A stretch of DNA of 64,000 nucleotides, from NCBI RefSeq assembly GCF_017356035.1, contig NZ_JAFIQX010000001.1, positions 620,001 to 684,000 on the forward strand. Reading direction: 5' to 3'. A program made the translations under genes and the position numbers. This DNA is from Longitalea luteola (GTDB lineage Bacteria > Bacteroidota > Bacteroidia > Chitinophagales > Chitinophagaceae). Under the pieces are notes generated by a model. It was not told the DNA's origin, did not search any database, and was given only the letters and a program-made list of their open reading frames with translations. Of the stretch, positions 3,094-59,941 are shown one piece after another (position 1 is the stretch's first letter; every line of letters starts with the position of its first letter).

Positions 3094-3170
3094 TGTGATG
3101 ATCTGATAATTAGCAAATGTGATAATGCCTGTATTTCATTATCACATCATCACATCATCACATTATCAAA
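3094..3170. repeat. Arm-loop-inverted-arm repeat, TGTGATAAT type
   Basis: Units resembling TGTGATAAT/TTAGCAAA run left to right to about 3127. A short spacer with CTGTATTT (3129-3136) follows, and then the inverse units ATTATCACATCATCACAT run to the ribF stop. The whole gap can fold into one imperfect hairpin between the convergent holA and ribF genes and may act as a terminator. Confidence 0.85.
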
Positions 3171-4151
3171 TTACTGCCCAAGTACACGTAATGTATCTTC
3201 TTTATCCTTCTCAAGTTGTTCAACTAAAGCTTCAAGCCCGTTGAACTTAACTTCGGGGCGCAGGTATTGTTTTACATATACACGTAATGTTTTGCCATAA
3301 ATATCTTCATTGAAATCAAAGATATTTACTTCAATCACCCGGTCGGTGCCGCCAATGGTAGGTCTTATGCCTATGCTCATCATGCCGGAAAGCAGGTCTG
3401 AGGTCTGAGGTCTGAGGTCTGAAGCCTGACTTCCGGCTTCCGGCCCCGGATTTCTGATTTCGGCTTTCACCGCGTAAATCCCATTTCCGGGGATGAGCTT
3501 TTCTTCATTTTCAACACGCAGGTTGGCAGTGGGGTAGCCCAGCGTTCGGCCGAGCTTATTGCCGTCGACCACTGTGCCTTCAAAAAAGAAATCGTATCCC
3601 AGCAAGGTGTTGGCTCGTTCGGTATTACCCTGTAAAATGGCTTCGCGGATACGGGTTGAGCTAACGGTATTGTCATTGATCACATGGGCCGGAATTTCCA
3701 TTAGCTTGAAACCAAGCCGGTCGCTGTATTTTTCCAGTAATTTGTAGTCGCCCTGTCGATCCTTGCCAAAACGATGGTCGTAGCCGATGATAACCGTGTG
3801 CGGATGGAACTTTTCAACCAGGAACTGTTCAATGTAGGCTTCGGGGCTCTGTTGCGAAAAAGCATCGGTAAAGGGCACTACTACCAGGTGATCGATGCCG
3901 TTTTTATGCAGCAGTTCAATCTTTTCGTCGATCGTATTGATCAGCTGAATACCCGGCTGGCCGCTAACGATCACTTTGCGCGGATGCGGATGGAAGGTGA
4001 TAATGACCGTTTCGCCGCCGATGCGCGCTGCCTCCCGTTTCAATTGCTCCAGGATGCTCTTGTGGCCGGTATGCACTCCATCGAACGTACCTATGGTGAC
4101 TACAGCCCTGTTAAAGGCGGGAATAGTATCGGTTGAAAAGTAAACTTTCAT
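3171..4151 (-). CDS. ribF: Bifunctional riboflavin kinase / FAD synthetase
   Basis: RibF phosphorylates riboflavin to FMN and adenylylates FMN to FAD in the cytoplasm. The N-terminal FAD synthetase domain has TIGTFDGVHTGHKSIL with the HxGH nucleotidyl-transfer motif at residues 27-30. SSTRIREAI follows mid-protein, and the C-terminal flavokinase domain has GRTLGYPTANL and SIGIRPTIGGT. I chose ATG at 4151 (MKVYF) over the upstream ATG at 4172, which only adds seven residues that do not belong to the family. An insert of about 20 residues (around SQASDLRPQTSDL) sits between two flavokinase strands and is encoded by a spacer-type repeat. The enzyme is otherwise complete. Confidence 0.94.
   Translation of the reverse strand: MKVYFSTDTIPAFNRAVVTIGTFDGVHTGHKSILEQLKREAARIGGETVIITFHPHPRKVIVSGQPGIQLINTIDEKIELLHKNGIDHLVVVPFTDAFSQQSPEAYIEQFLVEKFHPHTVIIGYDHRFGKDRQGDYKLLEKYSDRLGFKLMEIPAHVINDNTVSSTRIREAILQGNTERANTLLGYDFFFEGTVVDGNKLGRTLGYPTANLRVENEEKLIPGNGIYAVKAEIRNPGPEAGSQASDLRPQTSDLLSGMMSIGIRPTIGGTDRVIEVNIFDFNEDIYGKTLRVYVKQYLRPEVKFNGLEALVEQLEKDKEDTLRVLGQ
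3393..3455. repeat. Spacer-type repeat inside ribF (GGTCTGA units)
   Basis: Consecutive GGTCTGA units followed by CCTGACTTCCGGCTTCCGG and the TTTCTGATTT word. The same words occur in non-coding spacers at 4165-4206 and 51145-51215. The copy keeps the ribF frame and adds about 20 residues to the flavokinase domain. Confidence 0.8.
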
Positions 4152-4164
4152 AAATGCGGTGCGA

Positions 4165-4335
4165 AAATACAATCTGAAATCGGAAGTCGGAAGCCGGAGG
4201 CCTGATTTAGAGATTTCGGGATTTCGAGATTTTGAGATTTCGAGATTTCGAGATTTTAAGATTTCGAGATTTTGAGATTCGCATTTCGTGAAATCAGCAA
4301 ATCCCGAAATCCCGAAATCAGAAATCAGAAATTTC
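4165..4335. repeat. Arm-loop-inverted-arm repeat, GAGATTTCG type, between ribF and purM
   Basis: Starts with GGAAGTCGGAAGCCGG words, then eight or more 7-8 bp units of GAGATTTC/GAGATTTT. After a short centre (CGCATTTCGTG) come inverted units (AAATCCCGAAATCCCGAAATC). It fills the gap between two divergent genes. Confidence 0.85.
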
Positions 4336-4340
4336 CGTCT

Positions 4341-4348
4341 TACCTTTG
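4341..4348 (+). promoter_or_regulatory. Putative -7 promoter box for purM
   Basis: TACCTTTG matches the Bacteroidota primary-sigma -7 consensus TAnnTTTG and lies 29 bp before the purM ATG, just after the repeat. No clear -33 box was seen. Confidence 0.6.
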
Positions 4349-4376
4349 GCGATTCATAAGATAATCAAAATCAGTA

Positions 4377-5540
4377 ATGAGTTTATATTCACAACGCGGT
4401 GTTTCTGCCCAGAAAGAGGAAGTTCACAAGGCTACGGAAAAACTGGATAAAGGATTGTATCCCCATGCTTTCTGCAAAATATATCCTGATTACCTGACCG
4501 GTAGCTCCGATTGGGTGAATGTAATGCATGCCGATGGCGCCGGAACCAAAAGCATCCTGGCTTATTTATACTGGAAAGAGACCGGTGACCTGTCGGTTTG
4601 GAAAGGCATTGCACAGGATGCAGTAGTGATGAACCTCGACGACCTGCTATGTGTGGGTATAACTGATAACCTGTTATTTTCTTCAACCATCGACCGCAAT
4701 AAAAAGCTGGTGACCGGCGAAGTGCTGGAAACCGTGATCAATGGCACCCAGGAGCTGTTCGATTCGCTGAAACAGTTTGGCGTGAACATCCATTACCTGG
4801 GCGGCGAAACGGCCGACGTGGGCGATGTGGTGCGCACCATTGCGGTAAATGGCACCATGACGGCCCGCTGGCCCAAAAACCGGCTGGTGACCAACGAAAA
4901 GATCCAGGCCGGCGATGTGATCGTCGGCTTCAGCAGTTTTGGACAAACCGTGTATGAAACGGAATACAACAGTGGCATTGGCAGCAACGGGCTTACCAGC
5001 GCCCGTCACGATGTGTTAAGCAAGTTTTACGCGGAAACATTCAAAGAATCATACGAGAACAGCCTCGCCGATGAAGTGGTGTATATCGGGCCCCATCGCA
5101 TGACAGATACGGTGGGCGCTGACAAACACCAGGTAGGTAAACTGCTGTTATCGCCCACCCGCACCTATGCGCCTTTGCTGAACGTATTCTTTGATAATTA
5201 TTTTGAGGCCATTCACGGCCTTATTCATTGCAGCGGCGGCGGACAAACGAAATGTATGAAATACCTGCCCGGCAATTTCCGGGTTGTAAAAGATAATTTG
5301 TTCGAGCCGCCCATCATCTTCCAGCTTATACAAAAAGCCTCCGGCTCAAACAACCGCGAAATGTACCAGGTGTTCAACATGGGCCATCGGCTGGAACTGT
5401 TTACCGATGCCGCTTCTGCACCGTTATTCATGGAAGCCGCTAAAAAGCTCGGCATAGAAGCGCAGATCGTAGGCCGCGTAGAAGCAAGTGATAAAAAAGA
5501 ACTGATCTTGAAGGTGGCAGGAGAAGAAATAGTTTATTGA
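4377..5540 (+). CDS. purM: Phosphoribosylformylglycinamidine cyclo-ligase (AIR synthetase)
   Basis: 387 residues, full length for the longer PurM type found in Bacteroidota. PurM closes the imidazole ring of FGAM with ATP to give AIR, step five of purine synthesis. Visible family signatures are HADGAGTKSILAYLY near residue 50, the DLLCVGITDNLLFSSTID block, and GGETADVGDVV, the nucleotide-binding glycine-rich segment. No other pur gene lies nearby, so it is expressed alone from the promoter just upstream. The start is fixed by ATG at 4377, 29 bp after a good -7 box. Confidence 0.93.
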   Translation: MSLYSQRGVSAQKEEVHKATEKLDKGLYPHAFCKIYPDYLTGSSDWVNVMHADGAGTKSILAYLYWKETGDLSVWKGIAQDAVVMNLDDLLCVGITDNLLFSSTIDRNKKLVTGEVLETVINGTQELFDSLKQFGVNIHYLGGETADVGDVVRTIAVNGTMTARWPKNRLVTNEKIQAGDVIVGFSSFGQTVYETEYNSGIGSNGLTSARHDVLSKFYAETFKESYENSLADEVVYIGPHRMTDTVGADKHQVGKLLLSPTRTYAPLLNVFFDNYFEAIHGLIHCSGGGQTKCMKYLPGNFRVVKDNLFEPPIIFQLIQKASGSNNREMYQVFNMGHRLELFTDAASAPLFMEAAKKLGIEAQIVGRVEASDKKELILKVAGEEIVY

Positions 5541-5545
5541 TACGG

Positions 5546-5785
5546 TTTACTAGTTTGGAGTTTATGGTTTATGGTTTATAGTTTATGGTTGTTCAGTATT
5601 CAGCCTCGCGACTACCCCTAAAATAAAAACACTTATGAACTGAACAACTCAATAACTGAACAACTCAATAACTCAGGAACTCAATAACTCAGGAACTGAA
5701 TAACTCAGGAACTGAATAACTCGTGAACTATGAACTTTAAACTTTAAACTTTGAACTTTGAACTGTGAACTGTGAATGAACTTTG
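5546..5785. repeat. Arm-loop-inverted-arm repeat, GTTTATG / ACTGAAT type
   Basis: Left arm of GTTTATGGTTTATAGTTTATG units, a loop containing TCGCGA (5606-5611), then a long right arm of AACTGAACAACTCAATAACT units passing into AACTTTGAACTTTGAAC units. It fills the gap between the convergent purM and DeoR-type genes. Confidence 0.85.
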
Positions 5786-5787
5786 AA

Positions 5788-6537
5788 CTAAATAACTTGT
5801 ATACCCGCATCCCGGTAGGGTTTTAATATCGGATCCTCCGGCGGTAACTCCGTAATAAGCATATGAATTTTGCCGATCTCGCAGATGTGTATGGGCTGCA
5901 GGCTGTTGATCTTTTCCGCAATGCTCAGGCAAACCACTTTTTGGGAAGATTCGATCATGGCTTTTTTCAACTGAACAACATCCCAGTCGCTATCGGTAAT
6001 GCCGTCTTTCAGACTGATGGCGTTAACGCCTAAAAAACACAGATCGGCCCGTATCCTTTTGATCTGGGTAATAGCCTCGCCGCCCGTTGTGATCTTCGAA
6101 TTCTTGGAAACCTTGTCGCCAATAGCGATCACATCAACCGACGGGTGCTGCATATATTCAAGAATGGCCGGTATGCTGCCAGACACGAACGTAGCTTTTA
6201 ACCGGGGCGGTAAAGCCCTGGCCATTTCAATAATGGTGGTGCCCCCGGTGGTAAGCACGAACATGCCGTCATGTATCAACGACGCGGCTTTGCGCGCAAT
6301 CGTCTTTTTATGATCGTGGGAATAAATATGCGAGCCGGTATAATGCACCTGGCTGAAAGAGTGTGACAGCGCGCCGCCATGTACTTTAATGATCTTCCCC
6401 TCTTCGGCCAGTTCCTGCAGGTCGCGCCGGATCGTGTCTTCCGATACATTCATATCCCTGCTGAGATTCGATGACATTACTTTATTGTGCAGGTTCACCT
6501 GGTGCAATATGTAAGCTTGTCGTTCTTTCTTTAACAT
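5788..6537 (-). CDS. DeoR-family transcriptional regulator
   Basis: 249 residues. The N-terminal winged helix-turn-helix covers about residues 5-57, with SRDMNVSEDTIRRDLQELAEEGKIIKVHGGAL, the DeoR signature. A sugar-phosphate-binding DeoRC domain follows, with TTGGTTIIEMARAL, IAIGDKVSKNSKITTGGE and LGVNAISLKDGITDSD. Family members usually repress sugar catabolism genes and sense a phosphorylated sugar. Here no sugar gene is adjacent, so the target and ligand are unknown. The ATG at 6537 gives the standard MLKKERQAYIL start. Confidence 0.9.
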   Translation of the reverse strand: MLKKERQAYILHQVNLHNKVMSSNLSRDMNVSEDTIRRDLQELAEEGKIIKVHGGALSHSFSQVHYTGSHIYSHDHKKTIARKAASLIHDGMFVLTTGGTTIIEMARALPPRLKATFVSGSIPAILEYMQHPSVDVIAIGDKVSKNSKITTGGEAITQIKRIRADLCFLGVNAISLKDGITDSDWDVVQLKKAMIESSQKVVCLSIAEKINSLQPIHICEIGKIHMLITELPPEDPILKPYRDAGIQVI

Positions 6538-6666
6538 GTTCGTTGAAGGGTATAATTCCAGTGACGGTTAAAATGGGAAAGCTATAGAAAATCCTGTATA
6601 AAATTTGCAAAAATTTCGCTGAAACTGTCAAGTCTTCGCCTTGCGTATGAGCGCTGAATGCAAAAC

Positions 6667-6697
6667 AAAAGGCCATTCCCTGAATGAAAATGGCCCT
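6667..6697 (-). terminator. Intrinsic terminator after the M56-amidase gene
   Basis: On the minus strand AATGGCC (6689-6695) would be the left and GGCCATT (6671-6677) the right strand of the stem, each read as its complement, followed by a T-rich tail. It is 26 bp past the stop of the M56-amidase gene. Confidence 0.65.
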
Positions 6698-6722
6698 TCC
6701 TCTTATATGCTTTATTCGTTAT

Positions 6723-8795
6723 TTAAACGGCAGGCTGTTTCTTTTTTTGGATCCGGAAGTTGACTTCGAAATAGTATTGAGCCGGTGGCAGCTCGTCGGC
6801 TGACAATTTCAGTTTGTTATCAAAAACCCGTTTCACTTCATCTTCCAGTAATTTTTGCATTTCCCTCCGGGTAAGCGGTTCACTAATGGCGGGATGTGTG
6901 TCTGCTTCCAGTCCTACAGAAGTCAAACTCGTTATGGCCTTTATTTCAGGCGGCGCCTGATCATAAAATTTTATATTATTCACCTCACCGTTCTTATTTA
7001 CTGCCAATGAAAAATACACAACGCCTTCTACATGGTTGTCCATAGCTTTTTTGGGGTACCGGGCACTGCGGCGGTAATGCCATGCAATTTTGAAAAGAAT
7101 AGAATCTTCATCAATATGTTTTGAATCTTTGCCAGTGTTTGCCGTGAGGTGTCTGCTCACTTGCAATGGTTGTGTTGCATTACCGGCTGGCTGTCGTGTT
7201 GCAGCCGGCGTAGCTTTGGGAACAGGGTAGGCCGATGGTGAAGGTGCCGGCTCACTAACGGCAGCGGTGGTTTTTTGCCTGCTGTTCACAATACCTTCCA
7301 GTATCTTTTTGGCAACAGCTTCCTGATTGCTGGTGTTGCTGATAAAGGCCAGGTCTTTTTCATTGTCGATAAAACCACATTCTATCAGAACAGCAGGACA
7401 GGGGGTTTGTTCAAGCACCCAGATGTTCTTTGTCCGTTGCTTTAAGGTCATATCGGTAGTGTATATCTTACTCAGCTCCTGTGCCAGGGCAGTGCCCAGT
7501 TGTTTCGATTGGTTCGTACGTTCATTTTCCTTGTTCGATACCCATACCTCAAAACCACTGCCGGCATCGCCATTCGGTTTGTCACTATGTGATATATGGA
7601 TTGAGATGTACATGTCGGGTTTGATCTTTTCAGCAAGTGCCGTACGGGCTCTTAACCCATCGTTTTTGTCTGTTGTACCGGTCGGCAGATTATTATCGGT
7701 GCGGGTCATTACCACGTTCACATTATACGAAGGAGCGAGCTGCTGAATCTTCTGGCTTATCTGTAAAGTGAGGTCTTTCTCGGCGACCTTTCCGTCTTTA
7801 CTGTAAGCGCCGGCATCTGAGCCGCCGTGACCGGCGTCTATAATTACGGTGATGGGCGTTTTGTTAGGTCCGGTATAGTAAATGTTCTTTAAGGCATTGG
7901 CCGACCGTTGCGCATATAAGGCAACGGTGCAGAATACAAGGGCCAATACGGGCAGCGCCATGAGGCGGCTGCGATAGCTGTAACGGGTTGACTGGTTGTT
8001 GGTAATCATGGCTATACGTCTTTTTATATGGTTTTGAAAAAAGTGGTTGGTAATGGAGCCGTTTTTGGTTTTCAGTGTTTGCAGCACCAGTAATTCTGCA
8101 TAGGCATAGCGGTCGCTGTCCGAGATGGCGTATTGATCGGCCAGGAATTCGTGAATAGCCTTCAATTCTTTTTTAAGCAAATGAAAGAATGGGTTGAACC
8201 AGAAAAAGGCGGTGATGATCTCTGCGAGAACGATATCAGCAGAATGCTTTTGCTGTACATGGAACAGCTCGTGACGGAAGATCTGCTGCCCTTCGCGGCT
8301 ATTGAAGGATAGGTCGTTATTCCAGAAAATTGACCGGAAAAAGGAGAAGGGTGTATTGGGTTCCCGGGTGGTGTAGAACTTCAGTTCTCCAATGCGTTCG
8401 AACGGATACCTGGTTGAGATCTTTCTGATGTACATAAGGGACCTTGCCAGTGTCCAAAGCAATAGCATAATGCCTGCGCTGTATATCAGGTACAGCATAT
8501 TTTCCAAAGTAAACAGTTTTGCCAGCGTACCTGGTGCGGATTGCAACCCGTCGTCCTCGCCATAATTCACCGTTAGCACTTCCAGGGTCTGGTACATGAC
8601 CTGGTTCACCCCGTTTTGCGGTTTGTTCCATACCGGGATCCTGATGAGGGGCAGCGTCACCGAGAACAGGAGGGTCGCCTGCAGGTAAAACCGGTTGTAA
8701 TGGTGGAACCGTTTGTTGCGTAAAAAGAGCCAGTAATAGCCCAGCAGTATGCCGGAGCACAGCATAACTTTTCCCAGGTACAGCAAAAAGGTCAT
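6723..8795 (-). CDS. BlaR1-like M56 metallopeptidase fused to an N-acetylmuramoyl-L-alanine amidase and a TonB-like C-terminal domain
   Basis: 690 residues in three parts. Residues 1-295 form an M56 (BlaR1/MecR1) unit with several membrane segments and the zinc site HELFH (175-179) plus E216 in HEFLADQYA. Residues 315-503 form an Amidase_3 domain with zinc ligands in DAGHGG (H323), E339 and SIH (H400) and the catalytic glutamate in IECGF (E472). After a Pro/Ala-rich linker, residues 570-685 resemble the TonB C-terminal domain (ARYPKKAMDNHVEGVVYFSLAVNKNGEV). BlaR1 proteins cleave or relieve a BlaI repressor; the BlaI gene overlaps this one by 4 bp. The amidase, exported past the last membrane segment, would cut peptidoglycan stem peptides. 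The fusion suggests a cell-wall sensor or repair enzyme; that role is inference. All key residues are present. Confidence 0.88.
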   Translation of the reverse strand: MTFLLYLGKVMLCSGILLGYYWLFLRNKRFHHYNRFYLQATLLFSVTLPLIRIPVWNKPQNGVNQVMYQTLEVLTVNYGEDDGLQSAPGTLAKLFTLENMLYLIYSAGIMLLLWTLARSLMYIRKISTRYPFERIGELKFYTTREPNTPFSFFRSIFWNNDLSFNSREGQQIFRHELFHVQQKHSADIVLAEIITAFFWFNPFFHLLKKELKAIHEFLADQYAISDSDRYAYAELLVLQTLKTKNGSITNHFFQNHIKRRIAMITNNQSTRYSYRSRLMALPVLALVFCTVALYAQRSANALKNIYYTGPNKTPITVIIDAGHGGSDAGAYSKDGKVAEKDLTLQISQKIQQLAPSYNVNVVMTRTDNNLPTGTTDKNDGLRARTALAEKIKPDMYISIHISHSDKPNGDAGSGFEVWVSNKENERTNQSKQLGTALAQELSKIYTTDMTLKQRTKNIWVLEQTPCPAVLIECGFIDNEKDLAFISNTSNQEAVAKKILEGIVNSRQKTTAAVSEPAPSPSAYPVPKATPAATRQPAGNATQPLQVSRHLTANTGKDSKHIDEDSILFKIAWHYRRSARYPKKAMDNHVEGVVYFSLAVNKNGEVNNIKFYDQAPPEIKAITSLTSVGLEADTHPAISEPLTRREMQKLLEDEVKRVFDNKLKLSADELPPAQYYFEVNFRIQKKKQPAV

Positions 8796-9163: not shown

Positions 9164-9188
9164 TGCAGCATTTTTATTGGTTTACTAT

Positions 9189-9204
9189 AACTAATTATTT
9201 AGTT
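9189..9204. promoter_or_regulatory. Putative BlaI-type operator 1
   Basis: Perfect dyad AACTAA-TTAT-TTAGTT, 26 bp upstream of the BlaI start and just downstream of the minus-strand -7 box. Its core resembles known BlaI-family dyads in size and symmetry. Confidence 0.7.
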
Positions 9205-9211
9205 GTGTGAT

Positions 9212-9219
9212 CAAATGTA
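9212..9219 (-). promoter_or_regulatory. Putative -7 promoter box of the blaI/M56-amidase operon
   Basis: CAAATGTA on + reads TACATTTG on -, matching TAnnTTTG. It sits exactly between the two identical dyads. Confidence 0.65.
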
Positions 9220-9220
9220 T

Positions 9221-9236
9221 AACTAATTTTTTAGTT
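9221..9236. promoter_or_regulatory. Putative BlaI-type operator 2
   Basis: Second dyad AACTAA-TTTT-TTAGTT, centred 32 bp (about three helical turns) from operator 1, so both would lie on the same face of the DNA. Confidence 0.7.
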
Positions 9237-10488: not shown

Positions 10489-10508
10489 TACAGTACTATA
10501 AAGAAACG

Positions 10509-12607: not shown

Positions 12608-12895
12608 GCTCAACGCTTAACGCGGAACGCTTAACGCCGGACGCTTAACGCGGAACGCTAAAGGCTGAAGGCAAACGCAATAAGGCTAAAGGCTCAAGGC
12701 TGAAAGCTGAAGGCAAAATGCAATAAGGCTAAAGGCAAAACGCAAATACAGGAGAGCAGCGCTAAGGCGCTGCGGGAAGTATAATCTGAACGCTGAATGT
12801 TTGACGCGAGCTTACCATTTCGGAGGCTGGCCTTAAGCGTTCAGCGTTCGGCATTTAGCTTTTTCAGCGTTAAGCGTTCAGTGTCTTTTATGGCA
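12608..12895. repeat. Arm-loop-inverted-arm repeat, AACGCTTAACGC / GGCTAAAGGC type
   Basis: Left arm of AACGCTTAACGC and GGCTAAAGGCTGAAGGC units. A GC hairpin (GCAGCGC/GCGCTGC, 12756-12773) marks the centre, then an inverted right arm (AAGCGTTCAGCGTTCGGC). No gene lies in this 314-bp gap. The family recurs at 27224-27330, 35124-35343 and 49735-49905. Confidence 0.88.
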
Positions 12896-15547: not shown

Positions 15548-15556
15548 AAAGGGGAG

Positions 15557-15564
15557 CAAAGGTA
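15557..15564 (-). promoter_or_regulatory. Putative -7 promoter box for the MATE gene
   Basis: CAAAGGTA on + reads TACCTTTG on -, matching TAnnTTTG, 10 bp before the ATG. Confidence 0.55.
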
Positions 15565-15862
15565 AGTTACAGGTTCCATGTTACAAGTTACAAGGCACAA
15601 ATTGCGGTCTGTGAAATGATTGCAAGATTGCCGATTTTCAAGCCCTGACCTGAAACCTGTAACCGGCAACTGTATTTCCCGGTAACTGGTAACTGGTAAC
15701 CAGTAACTGGTAACTGGTAACCGGCACCTGGTAACCGGTAACTGTATTTCCCGGTAACTGGTAACTGGTAACTGGGAACCGGTAACTGGTAACCGGTAAC
15801 CGGTAACTGATTTGCCTGAAACCTGTAACTTGTAACCTGTAACTTGTAACTTATTTCGTAAC
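15565..15862. repeat. Arm-loop-inverted-arm repeat, GTAACTGGTAACCG type
   Basis: Short left arm (GTTACAGGTTCCATGTTAC), an 80-bp centre, then a very long right arm of over twenty 7-bp units (GGTAACT/GGTAACC), with CTGTATTT at 15670-15677 and 15742-15749. It fills a divergent gap, so it must share the space with two promoters. The long frame on - through it encodes only repeats and is not a gene. Confidence 0.88.
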
Positions 15863-15883
15863 ATTGCAGCTTTTGATAACATT

Positions 15884-17276: not shown

Positions 17277-17310
17277 TTAGAGACCTGCCTGCCGGCAGGC
17301 AGGTCTCTAA
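17277..17310. terminator. 34-bp perfect palindrome after rsmD, possible terminator
   Basis: TTAGAGACCTGCCTGCC followed by its exact reverse complement, centred on GCCGGC. It makes a 17-bp stem with no spare loop, starting 6 bp after the rsmD stop. It is a member of the CCTGCCTGCCGGCAGGCAGG element also seen at 21693-21714, 27986-28005 and 51134-51148. A terminator role is inference: it has no long T-run. Confidence 0.6.
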
Positions 17311-19616: not shown

Positions 19617-21656
19617 ATGAGCAGAAAACAAGCAAAGAAGAAAAAGAAAAAAGGAGCAGCTGAGCCACACACACTGAAAGGTGTTTTAGATATTACCCGG
19701 TCAGGCATCGGGTATGTAATTGTTGAAAATCTTCCCAATGATATTCTCGTGCGGCCCGCTGATTTCAATACCGCCCTGCATGGCGATACCGTGCGGGTTC
19801 GCGTATTGGGCGGCTCCGCCAAAAAAAGCGGCCGGCAACAGGGCCAGATCGTTGATGTACTGCAGCGTAAACAAATGGAATTTCTGGGAAAACTGGAAAT
19901 AGGCAAAACTGCCGCTTTCTTTACTGCAGATACCGAAAAGCCCATGCCCGATATTTTCATTCCCGAATCGGCATTGAATGGCGCTAAAGACGGTGATCGC
20001 GTAATTGTACGCATTACTGAGTGGGAGAAACAGAAGAAGCCGGTTGGCACGGTTATCCAGGTAATGGAGCCAGGTAACGAAGGCGATATGGCCATGAAGG
20101 AGATCCTGATGGAAAATGGCTTCCCCTTATTTTTCCCGGAAAATGTATTGGAAGAAGCGGAACGTATACCCGATACCATTTCACAGGACGAGATCAAAAA
20201 AAGAAGAGATTGCCGCGATGTGTTGACATTCACCATCGACCCGGTAGACGCCAAGGATTTTGATGATGCCTTAAGCATTCGGTTACTGAAGAACGGTATG
20301 TATGAAATAGGGGTGCATATAGCCGATGTAAGTCATTACGTAGAGCCGGATTCGGCCCTTGATAAAGAAGCTTATGACCGCGCCACATCGGTATACCTTC
20401 CCGACCGCGTAGCGCCCATGCTGCCCGAACGCATTTCGAATGAACTGTGCTCACTGCGGCCGCGGGAAGACAAGCTTACCTTTTCAGCGATCTTTCAAAT
20501 AACCGATACCGGTGAAGTAAAGCAATACTGGCTGGGCCGCACAGTGATCCATTCCAATCACCGCTTCACGTACGAAGAAGTGCAGGAGATCATCGAAAAA
20601 GGAGAGGGCTTATACCTCGATGAAATATTGCTGTTGAATAAACTCGCACAGGGCTTCCGCGCAAAGCGCTTTAAAAAGGGAGCCATCAATTTCTCATCAC
20701 AGGAAGTGCGCTTTAAGCTCGATGAATCAGGAAAGCCTATTGGCATTATGGTCAAGGAAAGCAAAGAGGCGCATCAGCTGATCGAAGAATTCATGCTGCT
20801 GGCGAATCGCGTAGTAGCAGAGAATGTAGGTAAGGTAAAGGTCAATAAAAAAGACCTGCCTTTCCCATACCGTGTGCATGATACTCCCGACGAAATGAAA
20901 CTGTTGCCCTTTGTTGAATTTGCAAAGAAATACGGTCATACATTCGATACCAAGACCCCGGAAGGCATTGCGGCTTCCTTCAACCTGATGCTGCAGGATG
21001 TACAGGGTAAACCCGAACAGCATGTGCTGGAACAACTGGGCATCCGCACCATGGCCAAAGCCATTTATACTACAGAGAATATCGGTCACTATGGATTAGG
21101 CTTTAAGCACTATTGTCATTTTACCTCACCCATTCGCCGTTATCCCGATGTAATGGTGCATCGCATTTTGCAGGAAGTGATAGATGGCGATCCGGAGCCG
21201 CAGAAGAAGCTGGAATCGAAATGTAAACACTGCAGTGAGAAGGAACGCGCCGCTATGGAAGCGGAACGCGCTGCCAATAAATACAAGCAGGTAGAATACA
21301 TGAAAGAATTCCTGGGTGAAGAATTTGAAGGTGTGATCAGCGGCGTGGCTTCTTTTGGTTTCTGGGTTGAGACCATAGAGCATAAATGTGAAGGTTTGGT
21401 AAGCATTAACAGCCTGCTCGAATACGATGATTTCCGCCATGTAGAAAGCGATTACAGTCTGGTAGGTTTACGCAGCGGCCGCAAATTTGCGATGGGCGAT
21501 AAAGTGCGCATAAAAGTAGTGGCAGCCAACCTTACCAAGCGCCAGCTGGATTATGAGTGGGTGATCACCTCGAGTTTGAAGGAAGAGACCGGCGCCGCTA
21601 AAAGATCCGGTGCCAGGAAAAATGTTCCTGCTAAAAAGAAAGGAAGCAAAAAGTGA
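19617..21656 (+). CDS. rnr: Ribonuclease R
   Basis: 679 residues. A Lys-rich head (KQAKKKKKKG) precedes OB-type cold-shock domains. The RNB catalytic domain begins at RRDCRDVLTFTIDPVDAKDFDDALSI with the metal-binding aspartates, and includes YTTENIGHYGLGFKHYCHFTSPIRRYPDVMVHR. An S1 domain (about 575-655, EEFEGVISGVASFGFWVE) and a basic tail close it. It is a processive 3'-to-5' exoribonuclease for structured RNA. It follows lpxK by 9 bp, so the two are likely cotranscribed. Confidence 0.94.
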   Translation: MSRKQAKKKKKKGAAEPHTLKGVLDITRSGIGYVIVENLPNDILVRPADFNTALHGDTVRVRVLGGSAKKSGRQQGQIVDVLQRKQMEFLGKLEIGKTAAFFTADTEKPMPDIFIPESALNGAKDGDRVIVRITEWEKQKKPVGTVIQVMEPGNEGDMAMKEILMENGFPLFFPENVLEEAERIPDTISQDEIKKRRDCRDVLTFTIDPVDAKDFDDALSIRLLKNGMYEIGVHIADVSHYVEPDSALDKEAYDRATSVYLPDRVAPMLPERISNELCSLRPREDKLTFSAIFQITDTGEVKQYWLGRTVIHSNHRFTYEEVQEIIEKGEGLYLDEILLLNKLAQGFRAKRFKKGAINFSSQEVRFKLDESGKPIGIMVKESKEAHQLIEEFMLLANRVVAENVGKVKVNKKDLPFPYRVHDTPDEMKLLPFVEFAKKYGHTFDTKTPEGIAASFNLMLQDVQGKPEQHVLEQLGIRTMAKAIYTTENIGHYGLGFKHYCHFTSPIRRYPDVMVHRILQEVIDGDPEPQKKLESKCKHCSEKERAAMEAERAANKYKQVEYMKEFLGEEFEGVISGVASFGFWVETIEHKCEGLVSINSLLEYDDFRHVESDYSLVGLRSGRKFAMGDKVRIKVVAANLTKRQLDYEWVITSSLKEETGAAKRSGARKNVPAKKKGSKK

Positions 21657-21836
21657 TTTCTGATTTCTGATTTCGAGATTTTGAGATTTTGAGACCTGCC
21701 GGCCGGCAGGCAGGTTTTTAGATTTTTTTATGTTCAGCCAACTGATAATTCGCAAAATCTCTGTATTTCTAAATCCCAAAATCAAGAAATCTCTAAATCT
21801 CTAAATCCCGGAAATCCCAAAATCAAAGCCGTATTC
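21657..21836. repeat. Arm-loop-inverted-arm repeat, GATTTCGAGATTTTGAG type
   Basis: Left arm 21657-21692, then the palindrome CCTGCCGGCCGGCAGG (21695-21710), a centre with TGTTCAGCCAACTGA (21731-21745), CTGTATTT (21761-21768), then a right arm of AAATCTCTAAATCCC units to about 21830. Confidence 0.87.
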
Positions 21837-22814: not shown

Positions 22815-22958
22815 AAAAGCGATTGCTGATTTTGAGATTTACGATTTTGAGATTTCTATACGTTCAACATTCCGATAAATCCCGGAATCTCAAAATCTCA
22901 AAATCTCAAAATCTCGAAATCTCAAAATCTCGAAATCTCGAAATCAAATTGGGGGATT
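22815..22958. repeat. Arm-loop-inverted-arm repeat, GATTTTGAGATTT type
   Basis: Left arm about 22825-22858, centre to about 22880, right arm of nine or more AAATCTCA/AAATCTCG units up to the permease leader. Confidence 0.86.
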
Positions 22959-27065: not shown

Positions 27066-27143
27066 TCCCCCGGCACCCTGAGGGGAAGACGTTTGCGCTA
27101 GCGGTAAATGAGCTCCTGCTTTATTGCAGGTTAAGTTTTTGTT

Positions 27144-27330
27144 GAAGGTGAATGGTGAATGGTCAATGGTGAATGGCTCGCGAAATTTAAACCCAATAAT
27201 GGATCTTACACCTCCAAATATTCAATGCCTTTAGCCTTCAGCCTTCCGCCTTCCGCCTTCCGCCTTCAGCCTTTAGCCTTCAGCCTTCAGCCTTCCGCCT
27301 TCAGCCTTTAGCCTTCCGCCTTTCGCCTAT
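27144..27330. repeat. Mixed spacer repeats: AATGGTGAATGGTC units, then CCTTCAGCCTTCCGCC units
   Basis: 27144-27178 holds five 7-bp GGTGAAT/GGTCAAT units ending at TCGCGA (27178-27183). 27224-27330 holds over a dozen 7-8 bp AGCCTTC/CGCCTTC units. No gene is seen between the Smr gene and rnpB. Confidence 0.85.
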
Positions 27331-27358: not shown

Positions 27359-27846
27359 AACTACAAACCGGGCTATCGCCTCGATTTATCGGGGAGGAAA
27401 GTCTGGACAGCATAGGGCAATGTACCGGTGAACAGCCGGGTCTTGTCCCGATAAAATCGGGATGGGAACAGACAGTGCCACAGAAAATTACAGCCTTCGC
27501 CCGCCAAAGCTTTGGCGGAGGTGGGTTTGTTCCGGCAAAGAGGGAAACCTCTTGAGCCGGAAGGGTGATGGTGAAAATGTGGGGTAAGAGCCCACGGTTC
27601 CGGCAGGTGACTGCCGGGAGGGGTAAACCTTGCATGCTGAAATGCCATGTATACCAGCGTTGAAGGGCGGCTCGTCCGATCCTTTCCGGGTAACCGGGGA
27701 GGAACGTTGGGTGGGTAGGCAGAATGATCCAGTCAGTAATGGCTGGACAAGATAAATGATAGCCTTATTCGTTGTTGCTTCCGGGCGGAATCCGCCGGTG
27801 AAGCTTCGGCGGATAATACAGAATCCGGCTTACAGGTTTGTAGTTT
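27359..27846 (+). ncRNA. rnpB: RNase P RNA (M1-type ribozyme)
   Basis: The conserved GAGGAAAGTCTGGACAG block (27394 on), ACAGAAAATTAC, GGGTAAGAGCCCA, CAGAATGATCC and the 3' ACAGAATCCGGCTTACAGG identify the RNA. Helix P1 closes exactly: AACTACAAACC (27359-27369) pairs with GGTTTGTAGTT (27835-27845), followed by a T-run. At about 488 nt it is longer than the usual 350-400 nt. The excess lies in three hairpins built from palindromes at 27446-27462, 27501-27518 and 27790-27814. It processes the 5' ends of tRNA precursors. Open frames across it on either strand are not genes. Confidence 0.93.
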
Positions 27847-27856
27847 CTTTTTTATA
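27843..27856 (+). terminator. T-run after rnpB
   Basis: P1 of RNase P RNA followed at once by TTTCTTTTTTAT can serve as an intrinsic terminator. Confidence 0.5.
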
Positions 27857-28328: not shown

Positions 28329-28730
28329 ATGAGGAACATCGTATTCACCCTTGGATGCGCTTTTGTAGCATTTCTGGCCGGTCTTTTAATTTATTTCTAC
28401 AGTAAACCCAGAAACCTGACATCAGAGACCGGTATTCCCATTACTGCGACTGAATTATATAGTCAATTCACTTCAGATCAATGTCAGGCTAACCAGGCCT
28501 ATTTGAATAAGGTATTGCAGGTTAGCGGACAGGTACTAACTATTAAGAATACACCGTATGCTGGCAGCATCGTTGTATTGTATACCGGCGATCCGGTATG
28601 CACTATCTCGTGCAGACTGGAAAAAGAACATCCTGTAACGGTAAAGCCCGGTGAAAAGATCACCATCAAAGGGATCTGTTCAGGATATATAAGTGATGTG
28701 GTACTCAGTAATAGTCAATTAGCTAATTAG
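28329..28730 (+). CDS. Membrane-anchored OB-fold (tRNA_anti-like) protein
   Basis: 133 residues. One N-terminal membrane segment (about 4-24, VFTLGCAFVAFLAGLLIYFY) is followed by a single OB-fold-like domain: AYLNKVLQVSGQVLTIKN, VVLYTGDPVCTISCRLEK and PGEKITIKGICSGYISDVVL. This matches the tRNA_anti-like family of small Bacteroidota proteins. The ligand is unknown; the fold name does not imply tRNA binding. It is a single gene. Confidence 0.75.
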   Translation: MRNIVFTLGCAFVAFLAGLLIYFYSKPRNLTSETGIPITATELYSQFTSDQCQANQAYLNKVLQVSGQVLTIKNTPYAGSIVVLYTGDPVCTISCRLEKEHPVTVKPGEKITIKGICSGYISDVVLSNSQLAN

Positions 28731-29124
28731 CTAATGTGATAATTTGATGATGTGATAATGTGATAATGAAATACAGGAAAATTACAATAATCAACATGTT
28801 TAGGGATAAATAGAAAATCCGCAAAAATGAAATTAATTATCGAATCATCGAATTATCACATTATCACATTGTGATTCGTACCCAACGCCAGTGCAAGGGG
28901 TGGGCGTCAGTACTCTTGACGACCCACCTTTGCCTGGCAACTATTGTTGATTTAATAATTCGATAATGTGATGATGTGATAATGAAAAACCGATCAGCTG
29001 ATTAGCTAATGTGCTGATGTGCTAATGAAAATAATTCAGTGAACATTATAATGTTTGAATAATTGAGGAATGCTTGAAATGGAGATCAATTAGCATATTA
29101 GCACATTAGCAAATTAGCAAATCA
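28722..29124. repeat. Two arm-loop-inverted-arm repeats (TGTGATAAT type) separated by a GC-rich hairpin
   Basis: Copy 1: left arm 28722-28770, AAATACAG at 28769-28776, right arm 28836-28872. A hairpin of 52 nt follows (28887-28938; GCCAG and GGTGGGCGTCA pair with TGACGACCCACC and CTGGC). Copy 2: left arm 28954-29026, right arm 29090-29124. No gene is present. Confidence 0.85.
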
Positions 29125-33382: not shown

Positions 33383-33481
33383 CTTACAAATTTTTTATGT
33401 TACATCTGTAAGACGTCAAAAAGTACGCAAAGGTTAAAGGGACCAAATAAGTATAACGTTTCAATAACAAAAACGAAAAAC

Positions 33482-33668
33482 TGATTTCTGATTTCGAGAT
33501 TTTGAGATTTAGCGATTTTCTTGTGTTCAGCCAACTGAGAAATTGCAAAATCTCGAAATCTCGGAATCTCGGAATCTCGAAATCTCGAAATCTCGAAATC
33601 CGGAAATCTGTGTATTTCTAAATCCCGAAATCTCGAAATCCCGAAATCTCGAAATCCCGAAATCGAAA
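33482..33668. repeat. Arm-loop-inverted-arm repeat, GATTTCGAGATTTTGAG type
   Basis: Left arm 33482-33512, centre with TGTTCAGCCAACTGA (33524-33538), then over a dozen AAATCTCG/AATCTCGG units. The centre matches that of the repeat at 21657-21836. Confidence 0.88.
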
Positions 33669-33674
33669 ATTGTT

Positions 33675-43206: not shown

Positions 43207-43320
43207 ACGCAGTTCTAAGTTCTAAGTTCTTGAGTTCCTAAGTTCTTGAGTTCCTAAGTTCTTAAGTTCATAAGTTATTAAGTTAAATACAGTCGCGAGG
43301 TTTGAATAACTGAATAACTG
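43207..43320. repeat. Arm-loop repeat, GTTCTAAGTTCTTGAGTTCC type
   Basis: Over ten AAGTTCT/GAGTTCC units, then AAATACAG (43285-43292) overlapping TCGCGA (43293-43298), then short inverted GAATAACTGAATAACTG units ending at the next gene. Confidence 0.84.
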
Positions 43321-43321
43321 A

Positions 43322-47274: not shown

Positions 47275-47390
47275 TTGGTGAATGGTCAATAGTCAATGGT
47301 CAATGGTGAATGGTCAATAGTCAATGGTCAATGTACCGGCTGAATAACTTAAAACTTTGAACTTAAAACTTTGAACTTTGAACTTTCTTC
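47275..47390. repeat. Spacer repeat, GGTCAATGGTGAAT units then AACTTTGAACTT units
   Basis: Eight or so 7-bp GGTCAAT/AGTCAAT units, a short centre, then AACTTAAAACTTTGAACTTTG units that enter the folK coding end. Confidence 0.85.
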
Positions 47391-49671: not shown

Positions 49672-49909
49672 GCCCCGGCCCCCTGAAGGGGGAGCTGTTA
49701 TGAGTTTCCAGTTGCCCCGAGGCGGTTTCAGGGCGTTGACTTATGCCTTGTGCCTTCAGCCTTGCACCTTCAGCCTTGAGCCTTCAGCCTTGCGCCTTGT
49801 GCCTTGTGCCTTCAGCCTTTAGCCTTCAGCCTTGCACCTTGCGCCTTCAGCCTTTAGCCTTCAGCCTTTAGCCTTTAGCCTTTAGCCTTGCGCCTTCAGC
49901 TTTTATCGA
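49672..49909. repeat. Spacer repeat, GCCTTCAGCCTTGCGCC type
   Basis: A hairpin CCCCC/GGGGG (49679-49692) follows the sppA stop. 49735-49905 then holds about twenty units of GCCTTCA/GCCTTGC/GCCTTTA in one orientation. Confidence 0.87.
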
Positions 49910-52488: not shown

Positions 52489-52516
52489 GTTTCACGTATA
52501 TAAGAGTAAAGTAAGG

Positions 52517-56264: not shown

Positions 56265-56281
56265 CACGCAAATTTGATTTT

Positions 56282-57583: not shown

Positions 57584-57617
57584 AATTTGTAATTCATACA
57601 GTTTCGTTTAAGAAGTG

Positions 57618-57649
57618 ACCCTGCCGTATTTACGGCAGGGTTTTCTTTT
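57618..57649 (+). terminator. Intrinsic terminator of the susCD unit
   Basis: ACCCTGCCGTA (57618-57628) and TACGGCAGGGT (57631-57641) form an 11-bp perfect stem with a 2-base centre, then TTTTCTTTT. Confidence 0.93.
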
Positions 57650-57767
57650 GGTGTTGATGGATATCAATTAATGGAATTCTAAGGAATTATTGTTGAATAC
57701 ATGTATATATTTGAGGATGTCGAGGTAAAAATAACAGTGTAATTTGAGCTGACGGAGTATGATTCTG

Positions 57768-57775
57768 TAGTTTTG
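57768..57775 (+). promoter_or_regulatory. Putative -7 promoter box for the SemiSWEET gene
   Basis: TAGTTTTG fits TAnnTTTG and lies only 8 bp before the ATG, implying a very short or absent leader. Confidence 0.5.
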
Positions 57776-57782
57776 TTACCCT

Positions 57783-58049
57783 ATGACAATTTCCACTATA
57801 GGGATGATCGCTGCCCTGCTTACAACAGCGGCTTATATTCCGCAGGCGTATAAGACCATCAAAACAAGATCGACCAAAGATCTTTCAATTGTTACTTTTT
57901 CCATGCTTTTTGTTGGAACTATACTCTGGTTCGTTTATGGGTTGTATATTCACGATACGCCATTAATGCTGGCCAACGGCATCACGGCTACTTTATCGGG
58001 TATCATATTTTTTATGAAGATCAGTTCCGCCAAAAAACGCCGGAGATAA
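57783..58049 (+). CDS. SemiSWEET sugar transporter
   Basis: 88 residues with three membrane segments, one PQ-loop unit. The PQ motif is P20-Q21 in AAYIPQAYKTIKTRSTKDLSI; FSMLFVGTILWFVYGLYIHDTPLMLANGITATLSGIIFFMKI completes the three-helix bundle. Two copies dimerise to carry sugars down their gradient across the inner membrane. The GNAT gene begins 9 bp after its stop. Confidence 0.93.
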   Translation: MTISTIGMIAALLTTAAYIPQAYKTIKTRSTKDLSIVTFSMLFVGTILWFVYGLYIHDTPLMLANGITATLSGIIFFMKISSAKKRRR

Positions 58050-58058
58050 AATTATTAT

Positions 58059-58493
58059 ATGAATGTAAGAGAAGCCCTTTTGACCGATATACCGCAAATG
58101 AACGAGGTGCGACTGGCCGTAAAAGAAAATGCTTTAACCGGTTCCGGTGAGGTAACGCAACAGGATTATGCTGATCATTTATCAGCGGGGGGAAAAGGCT
58201 GGGTGTGTGAAATGGATAACCGGGTGGTAGGTTTTGCCATCGGCGATCTTAACAGGCACAATTTGTGGGCCCTGTTTGTGCTGCCAGAATATGAGGAACA
58301 GGGAGTGGGCCGTGAACTGTTGATCACGTTGCTCGACTGGTATTACAGTCAAACCCGCGAAACGATCTGGCTTAGCACCGCCCCCGATACCCGGGCCGCT
58401 GAATTTTACCGGAGCTTTGGCTTTGCTGAAACCGGGAAAATGCCCAATGGCGAGATCAGGTTCGAATTATCGGCAGATGATTGGGGAGCTTAG
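58059..58493 (+). CDS. GNAT-family N-acetyltransferase
   Basis: 144 residues. The GNAT fold is shown by VREALLTDIPQMNEVRLAVKENAL, VGFAIGDLNRHNLWALFVLPEYEEQGVGRELL (the acetyl-CoA-binding Q-x-x-G-x-G/A form, QGVGRE) and TAPDTRAAEFYRSFGFAETG. It acetylates an unknown amine using acetyl-CoA. It is probably cotranscribed with SemiSWEET. Its stop overlaps that of bioA on the other strand by 4 bp. Confidence 0.9.
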   Translation: MNVREALLTDIPQMNEVRLAVKENALTGSGEVTQQDYADHLSAGGKGWVCEMDNRVVGFAIGDLNRHNLWALFVLPEYEEQGVGRELLITLLDWYYSQTRETIWLSTAPDTRAAEFYRSFGFAETGKMPNGEIRFELSADDWGA

Positions 58494-59752
58494 CTTCCCA
58501 AAATATTCACTATCACTTCATACACTTTTTCCAGTTCCTGCTGCGTAATGCAGTACGGTGGCATAACATACACGGTATTGCCTAAAGGACGCAAATACAC
58601 CCCCTGTTCAAGCGATTTGCGGGTAATCTCGAGTCCAATCGTATTTAAATAACCATCAGCACCGGCAACCATTTCAAAGGCCATAATAGTACCCAGCGAA
58701 CGCACGTTTTTAATTCGATCAGCGAACCGCGCATCGGTACTTAATTGTTGAACGAACTGATTATGCTGCCGGGTGATCCTTTCCCTGTTTGCCTGGCAGT
58801 CGGCTTGCAGTAACAGGTCCATACTCGCCAGGGCGGCGGCGCAGGCGAGGGGATTGGCGGTAAATGAATGCCCATGGAAAAACGTCTTGCGCCGGTCATC
58901 GTCCACATACGCATTATGGATCTTAGCGGTGCAGGCTGTAACACCTAAGGCCATGGTGCCGCCGGTCAATCCTTTTGACAGACAAATTATGTCCGGCCTT
59001 TCTTCCACATACTGGCTGGCGAAGAGCCGGCCGGTTCTGCCAAAACCCGTCATCACCTCATCGGCTATACAAAGTACATCATGCGCATGGCATTGTTTCA
59101 GTAACTCGTTCAACGCCGTTGCTTCATACATATTCATACCGCCAGCGCCCTGTAACAACGGTTCATAAATAATACAGGCTATTTCATCCCAGGGGCCAGG
59201 GTAAGCCGGCCTGCCCCCGACGGGTGGATCAATAAAAATGACCTCGAATAGTTTGTCATGAAAAGCCATATTGAATACCCCACGTTCACTGAGGCTCATG
59301 GTGCCAAACGTATCGCCATGATAGCTGTGATTCAGCGCCAGGATCTTGTTACGTTTGGTATTACCCTGGTTCCACCAGTATTGCAGGGCCATCTTAATGC
59401 CCACTTCCACCGCGGTAGAACCATTATCAGAATAGAAGATCTTAGCAAAGTCGCCGGGCAGTATTTCCAGCAGCCGTTCGGCCAGGCGAACCGCCGGTTC
59501 GTGGGTGAAGCCGGCAAATATTACCTGTTCCAGGGTTTTTGCCTGTTCATAGATTTTTTCGGCAATATAGCTATTGGCGTGCCCGTGAATGGTGACCCAC
59601 CAGCTGCTGATGGCGTCGATGTAGGCTTTTCCATGGGCGTCTATAATATAAACACCTTCTCCTTTTACAATAGGGATGGTCGCGGGCATCGACTTCTGCG
59701 GCGTATACGGATGCCACACTACTTTTTGATCTCTTTCGCTAAGTGTTGCCAT
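58490..59752 (-). CDS. bioA: Adenosylmethionine-8-amino-7-oxononanoate aminotransferase
   Basis: 420 residues. VVWHPYTPQKSMPATIPIVKGEGVYIIDAHGKAYIDAISSWWVTIHGHAN is the BioA opening. ICLSKGLTGGTMALGVTAC carries the PLP lysine and FFHGHSFTANPLACAAALASM the substrate loop. It turns KAPA into DAPA with SAM as amino donor, the step before BioD (17.3 kb). It has its own promoter 15 bp upstream of the ATG and stands apart from other biotin genes. Confidence 0.95.
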   Translation of the reverse strand: MATLSERDQKVVWHPYTPQKSMPATIPIVKGEGVYIIDAHGKAYIDAISSWWVTIHGHANSYIAEKIYEQAKTLEQVIFAGFTHEPAVRLAERLLEILPGDFAKIFYSDNGSTAVEVGIKMALQYWWNQGNTKRNKILALNHSYHGDTFGTMSLSERGVFNMAFHDKLFEVIFIDPPVGGRPAYPGPWDEIACIIYEPLLQGAGGMNMYEATALNELLKQCHAHDVLCIADEVMTGFGRTGRLFASQYVEERPDIICLSKGLTGGTMALGVTACTAKIHNAYVDDDRRKTFFHGHSFTANPLACAAALASMDLLLQADCQANRERITRQHNQFVQQLSTDARFADRIKNVRSLGTIMAFEMVAGADGYLNTIGLEITRKSLEQGVYLRPLGNTVYVMPPYCITQQELEKVYEVIVNILGS

Positions 59753-59766
59753 AATTTTAAAGGGAG

Positions 59767-59774
59767 CAAAGGTA
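59767..59774 (-). promoter_or_regulatory. Putative -7 promoter box for bioA
   Basis: CAAAGGTA on + reads TACCTTTG on -, fitting TAnnTTTG, 15 bp before the ATG. Confidence 0.55.
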
Positions 59775-59831
59775 GTTCTCTGTTTCTAGTCGGTTCAAAT
59801 TTAAATTTCAAATTTTCAATTCCATGAGGCG

Positions 59832-59941
59832 GTTGCTTGTTACAGGTTACAAGTTACCAGGGTTTCAATCACAGTATGCTGAATAACAGTTTTAGTGGCA
59901 TAAATCCAAGGCCCTGAAACCTGGAAACTGAAACCTGTAAC
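59832..59941. repeat. Arm-loop-inverted-arm repeat, GTTACAGGTTACAAG type
   Basis: Left arm 59832-59862, a 50-bp centre, right arm CCTGAAACCTGGAAACTGAA at 59912-59940. It lies between the divergent bioA and ECF sigma genes. Confidence 0.85.

Follow-up and report, generated by a model that had tools for sequence, protein, structure and literature searches.

The gaps between genes of a Niastella-like member of the Chitinophagaceae (Bacteroidota) hold arrays of degenerate 7- to 8-bp tandem units, many of which face each other in one plan: units, a loop, and units of the same family in reverse complement. We analyzed them starting from a 64,000-nucleotide stretch of its 7.3-Mb genome (the window, G000:C11:620001-684000). 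An AIR-synthase-like protein of the genome is 92% identical to that of Niastella populi, the nearest named record, although the genome's own records were possibly excluded. The two arms of an element are independent of each other, the strand running inward is usually G-rich, the unit sets are genome specific, and arrays replace resident sequence, including in the loops of coding genes. We tentatively propose, with a probability of about one in three, that a trans-acting process writes the arrays at DNA ends, a reading that we narrowly prefer over selection for bidirectional hairpins.

Genes were predicted with a simple caller of our own, which gave 50 genes and 42 gaps in the window. Gaps shorter than 50 bp or longer than 1500 bp were generally left out; the lower limit was 60 bp for a 464-kb sample of the same contig, and the upper limits were 1200 bp in the search for inverted matches in named gaps and 2000 bp in stretches from other genera. 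The widest sample comprised 1.26 Mb of this genome and blocks of eight relatives, with 1021 gaps. Tandem Repeats Finder (TRF) returned 120 rows for the window, among them exact block duplications. A strong 7- or 8-bp period (score of at least 18) was present in 53 of the 210 gaps of the 464-kb sample; shuffled gaps gave none (n = 1050) and coding stretches one (n = 210). Six Niastella genomes yielded 336 gap arrays, versus 4 after one shuffle of each gap, with periods of 7 (212 arrays), 8 (117), 9 (4) and 6 (3). The period was 7 or 8 in 679 of the 691 arrays of the widest sample, and nearly always so in the 1.26 Mb of this genome, where 275 of 719 gaps held arrays. A preliminary description of this DNA had placed repeats in most gaps, which is true of the window if the cut-off is loose (25 of the 37 gaps that have orthologues in four or more genomes) but not of that wider sample. 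Its statement that convergent, divergent and co-directional gaps all carry them was confirmed (101/181, 52/218 and 244/622 gaps in the widest sample), the difference between convergent and divergent gaps being marked (p = 9e-11). Greedy clustering sorted the arrays of this genome's sample into 54 unit families, the top ten of which accounted for 349 of 483 arrays.

The inverted plan is real, yet it is not general to gaps with arrays. Among 235 pairs of arrays within one gap in the six Niastella genomes, 73 were inverted, 83 direct, 78 unrelated and 1 ambiguous, whereas 264 of 3888 pairs taken between gaps were inverted (Fisher 3e-26); the median spacing between inverted arrays was 62 bp. By whole-gap alignment, 26 of 53 array gaps outscored all 20 of their shuffles, but only 12 of 53 outscored 95% of the matches to other array gaps, which often share families. 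The earlier observation itself was confirmed. No inverted partner was found for 457 of the 691 arrays of the widest sample, and one-way arrays are also present in the window, as at 47276-47333 and 49745-49900. What had been described as one architecture with differing sequences was borne out as a general class, and relatives carry inverted arms and not one-way arrays only.

The eight elements named in the preliminary description occupy seven gaps, each of which contains an inverted match with a tandem arm, and the two elements of gap 28731-29124 were separated as distinct array pairs. All eight folded more stably than their dinucleotide shuffles (z from -3.2 to -6.0). In the six elements with at least two detected arrays, flipping single arrays (n = 17) weakened the fold in 10 cases, left it unchanged in 1 and strengthened it in 6, the last falling in elements with several arrays of one orientation.

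The arms of one element are not mirror copies but mutually independent. Permuting the units of one arm left the arm-to-arm match as it was (19.0 for the native order versus 19.1; z = -0.04 ± 0.12, 49 pairs). This check on unit order, proposed earlier, argues mostly against tuning of one arm to the other, with a slight native gain in the folds of seven of the eight named elements. In arms of equal period and near-identical consensus, the proportion of shared units was 0.904 for the two arms of an element (59 pairs), 0.902 for arms of different elements in the same genome (735) and 0.876 for arms from different genomes (608). Copying of one arm from the other at a hairpin is disfavored because sharing within an element is about the same as between elements, and the permutation result likewise disfavors snap-back or mirror copying.

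Units along an array also showed scant memory of their neighbors. At the variable positions, agreement between neighboring units and between any two units of an array was 0.575 versus 0.575, 0.717 versus 0.738, 0.534 versus 0.533, 0.689 versus 0.656, 0.661 versus 0.618 and 0.652 versus 0.658 in the six families tested, so that neighbors were slightly more alike in two of six families. Plain local slippage is disfavored by this result. The permutation, shared-unit and neighbor tests together speak against the copying or slippage at hairpins that the preliminary description had suggested as the source of the arms. Units within one array were nevertheless more alike than units from different arrays in all six families (e.g., 0.575 versus 0.477). 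The units thus look drawn from a genome-wide pool, with each array partly individual.

The unit design is a fixed core with variable positions. In GATTT-N-G-N, two positions vary (at 0.47 and 0.32) and the rest at 0.07 or less, and the same two vary in other species (0.81 and 0.36). In AATNNGNT, positions 4, 5 and 7 vary most, both in this genome and in other species, and position 1 in this genome only; the three variable positions of GTT-N-C-N-R are identical in the two samples. The AAGGC, AAGTT and AAGTA words form cores in this genome, with a less clean or different pattern in other species. Variable positions are often two-lettered (e.g., A198 C65 T2 G0). The GATTT family shows a coarse order along the arm: of 75 runs, 30 have a 7-nucleotide step outermost and 7 have one innermost. 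Some arrays show unit drift along their length.

The elements also show a prevailing polarity. The inward strand was G-rich in 97 of 113 inverted pairs of the widest sample (117 pairs minus 4 ties), with ratios of 34:2 in convergent, 29:9 in co-directional plus-strand, 21:4 in co-directional minus-strand and 13:1 in divergent gaps. Unpaired arrays leaned the same way by gap side in eight of eight classes, most weakly in the left half of co-directional plus-strand gaps (67:42). Non-tandem hairpins of the first six-genome sample showed no such bias (58:80 of 151). In other genera, where stretches of ten genomes had been picked for holding AGTT arrays, all 10 inverted pairs were G-rich inward; they came from five genomes representing four genera. 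Array-free gaps had scant left-right contrast in GC skew except divergent ones (0.098 versus -0.028); the contrast of array DNA in divergent gaps was 0.145 versus -0.079.

A short tag ends a minority of the inward strands. The tag counts used the 578 of 691 arrays whose G-C difference was at least 2; their orientation by G over C presupposes the polarity, which the polarity counts themselves do not. AATACAG was found just inside 40 of the 578 oriented arrays, just outside 4 and on the opposite strand in 3 (Niastella), and AATACA inside 72, outside 17 and on the opposite strand in 11. The tag adjoins several families, most often AATNNGNT, in at least six genomes, and was not seen in the other genera (0 of 63). 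A second motif just inside arrays is the palindrome TCGCGA (20 inside versus 1 outside), often seen as GGCTCGCGA in element loops of this genome, of G005 and of others (numbers of this form denote genomes of our set).

Orthologous gaps retain arrays but switch families. In the gap between the ribF-like and AIR-synthase-like genes, GATTT octamers occur in this genome, G005, N. populi and G007 (the last by eye), GAAGTAG units in G009 and AAGTTTT units in G002, all between conserved flanks; in G003 CAAGGCA was seen by eye and no array was called. Over 37 gaps and 202 genome-gap cells of six genomes, 115 of them with arrays, arrays were present together in 205 pairs of cells, compared with 150.1 ± 5.9 expected; for inverted pairs (43 cells) the figures were 29 and 21.3 ± 3.6 (p = 0.025). 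Some gaps held no array in any genome seen, and co-presence may therefore largely mark unconstrained gaps. Taken together, 29 comparisons of like arrays from 10 orthologous gaps gave no sign that unit order is conserved with the nearest relative (z = 0.17 ± 0.16). Identity at fourfold-degenerate sites was 0.626 with that relative and 0.53 to 0.55 with the others, one genome being used per species. In G009, the elements in the gaps orthologous to 3094-3170 and 33383-33674 share a long loop start, AAATACACTGCTTC followed by CGGCCTACG, from which it appears that some loops may be copied between loci.

Arrays also occur inside genes. In 897 kb of coding sequence we found 10 arrays, some of them possibly in miscalled genes, versus none in codon-shuffled genes. 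Nine of the 10 had period 7, and five of those nine belonged to the top intergenic families, compared with 10.5% of random words; the word of the ribF array was outside these families. The ribF loop is ordinary sequence in G002 and N. populi. It consists of arrays in this genome, G005 and G009, where they were called, and, judged by eye, in G003 and G007; the arms face each other in this genome and G007, again by eye. Among nine sequences of an fmt-like formyltransferase, the linker holds arrays in this genome, G003, G002 and G005; the search output showed one in-frame TAA in the G002 orthologue (G002:C8:245158-246087, L236). One loop of an HI0933-like gene, likewise in nine sequences, holds arrays in this genome, G009 and G003, and a second place holds them in five others. 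Words at one and the same site differ between genomes. The ribF and fmt-like loci have a 21-nucleotide array word in common in G005 and in G003, two of the six genomes tested; the shared length was 15 in G009, 10, 12 and 13 in the other three, and 10 to 13 in cross-genome controls. The G009 coding word is common in G009 gaps and nearly absent from those of others. The coding arrays hint most strongly at a word pool acting in trans and at selection as terminators being unnecessary.

Dense arrays look like a Niastella trait, as far as a small sample goes: in random first stretches from 11 other genomes of the family (11 of 14 were kept, stretches below 15 kb being left out), arrays were present in 2 of 91 gaps. 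A search for relatives gave few loci with arrays outside N. populi, loci below 10 kb being left out. Five consecutive AGTTNNN units were found in 40 of 147 Chitinophagaceae genomes and in 32 of 100 genera. The backward control, five TTGANNN units, was itself abundant in other genomes, being plentiful in G018, G040, G050, G054 and G149, all of other genera, which suggests that such arrays are those genomes' own word family. Four AAGGCNN units gave 289 matches in this genome and 1 to 7 in six others of the 147. The AATGTGCT word is also present in another genus (G075).

The process that we favor would take short words from a genome-wide pool and write them, in trans, into DNA that the cell can spare. 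Where the DNA has a break or gap, the two 3' ends would be extended inward with G-rich units of 7 to 8 nucleotides, the core of each unit being copied faithfully and the other positions loosely, and the extended ends would then be joined across filler DNA, giving units, loop and reverse-complement units. The same process would act between genes and, where the reading frame survives, in tolerant protein loops, replacing the resident sequence. The break, the extension of 3' ends, the template and the enzyme are what we infer here. We counted the independence of the arms, the scant neighbor memory and the shared variable positions in favor of writing at ends, and likewise the swaps of families between conserved flanks and the in-frame coding arrays, the inward polarity in this and other genera, which non-tandem hairpins do not share, and the lack of an excess of G.U over A.C pairs in the sense strand (below). 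A more specific version seems rather unlikely: a novel Chitinophagaceae end-extension system, telomerase-like with many templates, would cap or fill ends with genome-specific 7- to 8-nucleotide G-rich words, and joined ends would remain as inverted-array spacers and in-frame inserts. A conserved reverse transcriptase (RT) that looks like retron type XIII was considered as the writer and is disfavored, as it does not track the arrays: strong RT_XIII matches (>600 bits) occurred in 6 of 147 genomes of the family, only two of which, both of this genus, have AGTT arrays, compared with 40 of 147 genomes that have them. Nine genomes of the genus carry an RVT_1 gene comparable in length and score. 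According to PADLOC models, the type XIII retron-like locus of this genome (L206, G000:C1:220001-232000, RT at 5349-6860) encodes WGR/HEAT and SWIM proteins besides the RT. The polarity, the independence of the arms, the exchange of words and the inserts in housekeeping genes make the origin of such repeats a testable question, namely whether spare DNA receives them from a process of repair or copying; such a process would also supply large-genome Bacteroidota with new spacers and protein loops.

Several observations weigh against writing at ends. Our searches found neither a writing enzyme nor a template, the template RNA itself not having been sought. Arrays keep some individuality, each of the six families tested showing greater likeness among units of one array than across arrays, and the native-order advantage in folding, by 0.1 to 5.1 kcal/mol over the permuted mean, is present in seven of the eight named elements. 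Exceptions to the polarity exist (16 of 113 pairs), and in divergent gaps it may partly reflect general composition, given the contrast of array-free divergent gaps. AATACA favors the sense strand (56/336 versus 18/242; p = 0.001); this preference and the richness of convergent gaps point to a connection with transcription. None of the G003 gaps examined contained the G003 coding word, a resident, AAG-rich local seed may be the origin of the HI0933-like array, and some blocks in arrays are exact duplications. With fourfold-site identity so low, the age of the arrays cannot be read, and the exchangeability of units could partly be old saturation.

The main alternative is that facing arms of one family have been kept by selection as bidirectional terminators or insulators between transcription units, the exact units being nearly free. 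We hold this to be only slightly less probable than writing at ends. It would account for the convergent gaps being richest in arrays, for the sense preference of the tag, for the agreement of array presence across orthologous gaps and for some loops in which, by eye, T follows a compact stem. Convergent gaps with arrays also contain fewer compact stems with a U or A tract (6/101) than those without (19/80; p = 0.0009), whereas such sites are about equally frequent in co-directional gaps with (16/244) and without (32/378) arrays. Selection for long spacer hairpins, which the preliminary description had offered as its second suggestion, draws support from the stable folds and the lead of the native order in seven of eight elements, but over 49 array pairs unit order carries no clear signature of pairing, permuted arms matching equally well. 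In 66 co-directional hairpins G.U pairs numbered 48 and A.C pairs 62, so that selection for RNA pairing, as read from this ratio, is disfavored. No T-run follows the right arm (3.5 T in 10 nucleotides), a weak test given that compact stems as a group have 3.8. Most arrays lack an inverted partner, the agreement across gaps may merely mark unconstrained DNA, and hairpin selection alone leaves the inward polarity in divergent gaps and the arrays within genes unexplained. Both forces can act together, as written arrays may persist where a hairpin helps. A reading as Rho-loading sites, with a C-rich strand and regular spacing, was set aside by argument only.

A further alternative, that the arms of an ancestral hairpin underwent local slippage and were held in one family by hairpin-templated exchange, appears unlikely. 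It would fit the block duplications among the TRF rows, the unit drift, the coarse mirror order of the GATTT family, the likeness of units within arrays and a possible local seed of the HI0933-like array. Scant neighbor memory and the lack of any arm-to-arm excess speak against it, as do a word that recurs at unrelated coding loci within each of two genomes and variable positions common to species for the three main families. The arrays might also be binding sites for DNA- or RNA-binding proteins, with the core as recognition word and the facing arms as dyad symmetry. Invariant cores with free positions and the occurrence of one word in two genera agree with this idea, which we hold to be distinctly improbable in view of some 54 unit families in one genome's sample, their swapping at orthologous gaps and the arrays in coding loops. 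Dispersal of repetitive extragenic palindromic (REP)-like or miniature inverted-repeat transposable element (MITE)-like hairpins by a transposase would explain facing ends and a tag common to a minority of arrays. Gap pairs sharing exact stretches were indeed slightly in excess of permuted units at 16 nucleotides or more (1560 versus 1440, maximum 1502) and at 35 or more (19 versus 11.8, maximum 18), but there was no clear excess of long copies at 30 or more (49 versus 43, maximum 59) or at 40 or more (3 versus 2.5), and no core is common across families. Transposed cassettes are thus a very remote explanation.

Within the window, the GATTT octamers recur in several elements. In the divergent gap at 4165-4335, between the ribF-like and AIR-synthase-like genes, GATTT-N-G-N octamers occupy 4204-4279 and face an inverted array at 4291-4319 that continues to 4332. 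The co-directional element at 22815-22958 has its left GATTT array at 22828-22855 and the inverted one at 22878-22945. At 33482-33668, an array at 33490-33518 faces inverted arrays at 33540-33608 and 33620-33664, with an AATACAC-type tag on the minus strand (33610-33616). A further GATTT element (21654-21824) has CTGATTT heptamers outermost, then GAGATTT octamers, and its inverted array at 21755-21824. A compact palindrome with the core CCTGCCTGCCGGCAGGCAGG lies between two GATTT-type arms at 17279-17308 and is present in other gaps of this genome. It recurs as CTGCCTGCC in 26 gaps, versus 3.4 expected from coding sequence, and is likely a separate REP-like repeat.

Other elements use other words. 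The convergent, stop-to-stop gap at 3094-3170 has ATGTGATA octamers, its right array at 3137-3168 and AATACAG on the minus strand (3129-3135). The co-directional element at 12608-12895 consists of AACGC/AAGGC heptamers at 12608-12672, 12682-12723 and 12725-12746, AATACAG on the plus strand (12745-12751) and an inverted array from 12830. One convergent gap holds both the element at 28722-28872, with arrays at 28722-28768 and 28835-28870 and AATACAG on the plus strand (28770-28776), and that at 28954-29124, with arrays at 28955-28984 and 28992-29027 and an inverted one at 29089-29122. GTTACA heptamers at 59839-59860 face an inverted array at 59913-59941 in a divergent gap (59832-59941), and a GTTACA/GGTAACT element in another divergent gap (15548-15883) contains a duplicated block of 72 bp. 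The convergent gap at 5541-5787 combines GTTTATG heptamers on the left, AACTCAAT octamers in the middle and inverted GAACTTT heptamers on the right. At 43211-43321, AAGTTCTT octamers and an AATACAG tag are followed by a short inverted TGAATAAC array. A GGTGAAT array faces a GCCTTCA array at 27143-27322, directly upstream of the gene for RNase P RNA (27360-27848), the sole match in the window to Rfam at gathering scores. Inside the ribF-like coding sequence (3171-4151), in-frame AGGTCTG heptamers and then facing CTTCCGG units lie on the minus strand at 3394-3468. Among one-way arrays, the TGGTCAA array at 47276-47333 contains an exactly repeated block of 28 bp, and that at 49745-49900 has about 22 copies of GCCTTGA, for which an inverted partner was looked for and none was found.

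The elements resemble several known systems in part. Like intrinsic terminators, they form stable hairpins after genes, often between convergent genes; unlike them, they have long degenerate arms and no T-run and also occur inside genes, and terminators would be expected to be absent between divergent genes, where 52 of 218 gaps hold arrays and 15 inverted pairs were found. REP and other palindromic repeats exist as many palindromic intergenic copies, whereas the elements here keep no palindrome sequence across families and, unlike REP or MITE sequences, show no clear excess of long near-identical copies. In eukaryotic interstitial telomere repeats and head-to-head fusions, short G-rich units run inward and meet. 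The arrays share with these a G-rich 3' strand pointing toward the junction on both sides, and differ from telomeres in having many unit families in one genome; our searches gave no telomerase-like enzyme and no template. Short tandemly repeated repetitive (STRR) heptamers of heterocystous cyanobacteria are degenerate, dispersed between genes and present as several families per genome; to our knowledge, they are not described as forming inverted arms whose inward strand is rich in G.

Tandem intergenic heptamers are already known, and we did not find the inverted plan described. The preliminary description knew of no named element with this plan, and none turned up in the literature as covered by titles and the beginnings of abstracts, most subscription journals lying outside the search. 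The main text of PMC13155455, in the part covered, does not contain the words Bacteroidota or Chitinophag. Borg elements carry tandem repeats that, in the part of their description covered, evolve rapidly, are said to arise independently and affect proteins (PMC9879509); according to the same part, Borgs are extrachromosomal archaeal elements with tandem direct repeats, unlike the inverted arrays here. The closest relatives appear in the covered part of MacGregor 2015 (PMC4679880), which describes TAACTGA heptamer repeats in Beggiatoaceae, cyanobacteria and five Bacteroidetes. The opposite strand of TAACTGA reads AGTT-ATC and belongs to the AGTTNNN class of the present arrays. As far as that part of the description goes, both kinds of repeat consist of 7-nucleotide tandem intergenic units with other heptamers interspersed, 7-nucleotide steps and strain-specific placement; the TAACTGA repeats are direct, with one indirect repeat, and in the main species lie mostly just upstream of start codons (PMC4679880). 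The arrays of the present genome thus share with TAACTGA and STRR repeats the tandem 7-nucleotide units between genes, and depart from a direct-only arrangement without facing arms. Compared with TAACTGA as described in that same part (PMC4679880), they are set apart by their facing arms, inward polarity, swapping of families between orthologous gaps and tag.

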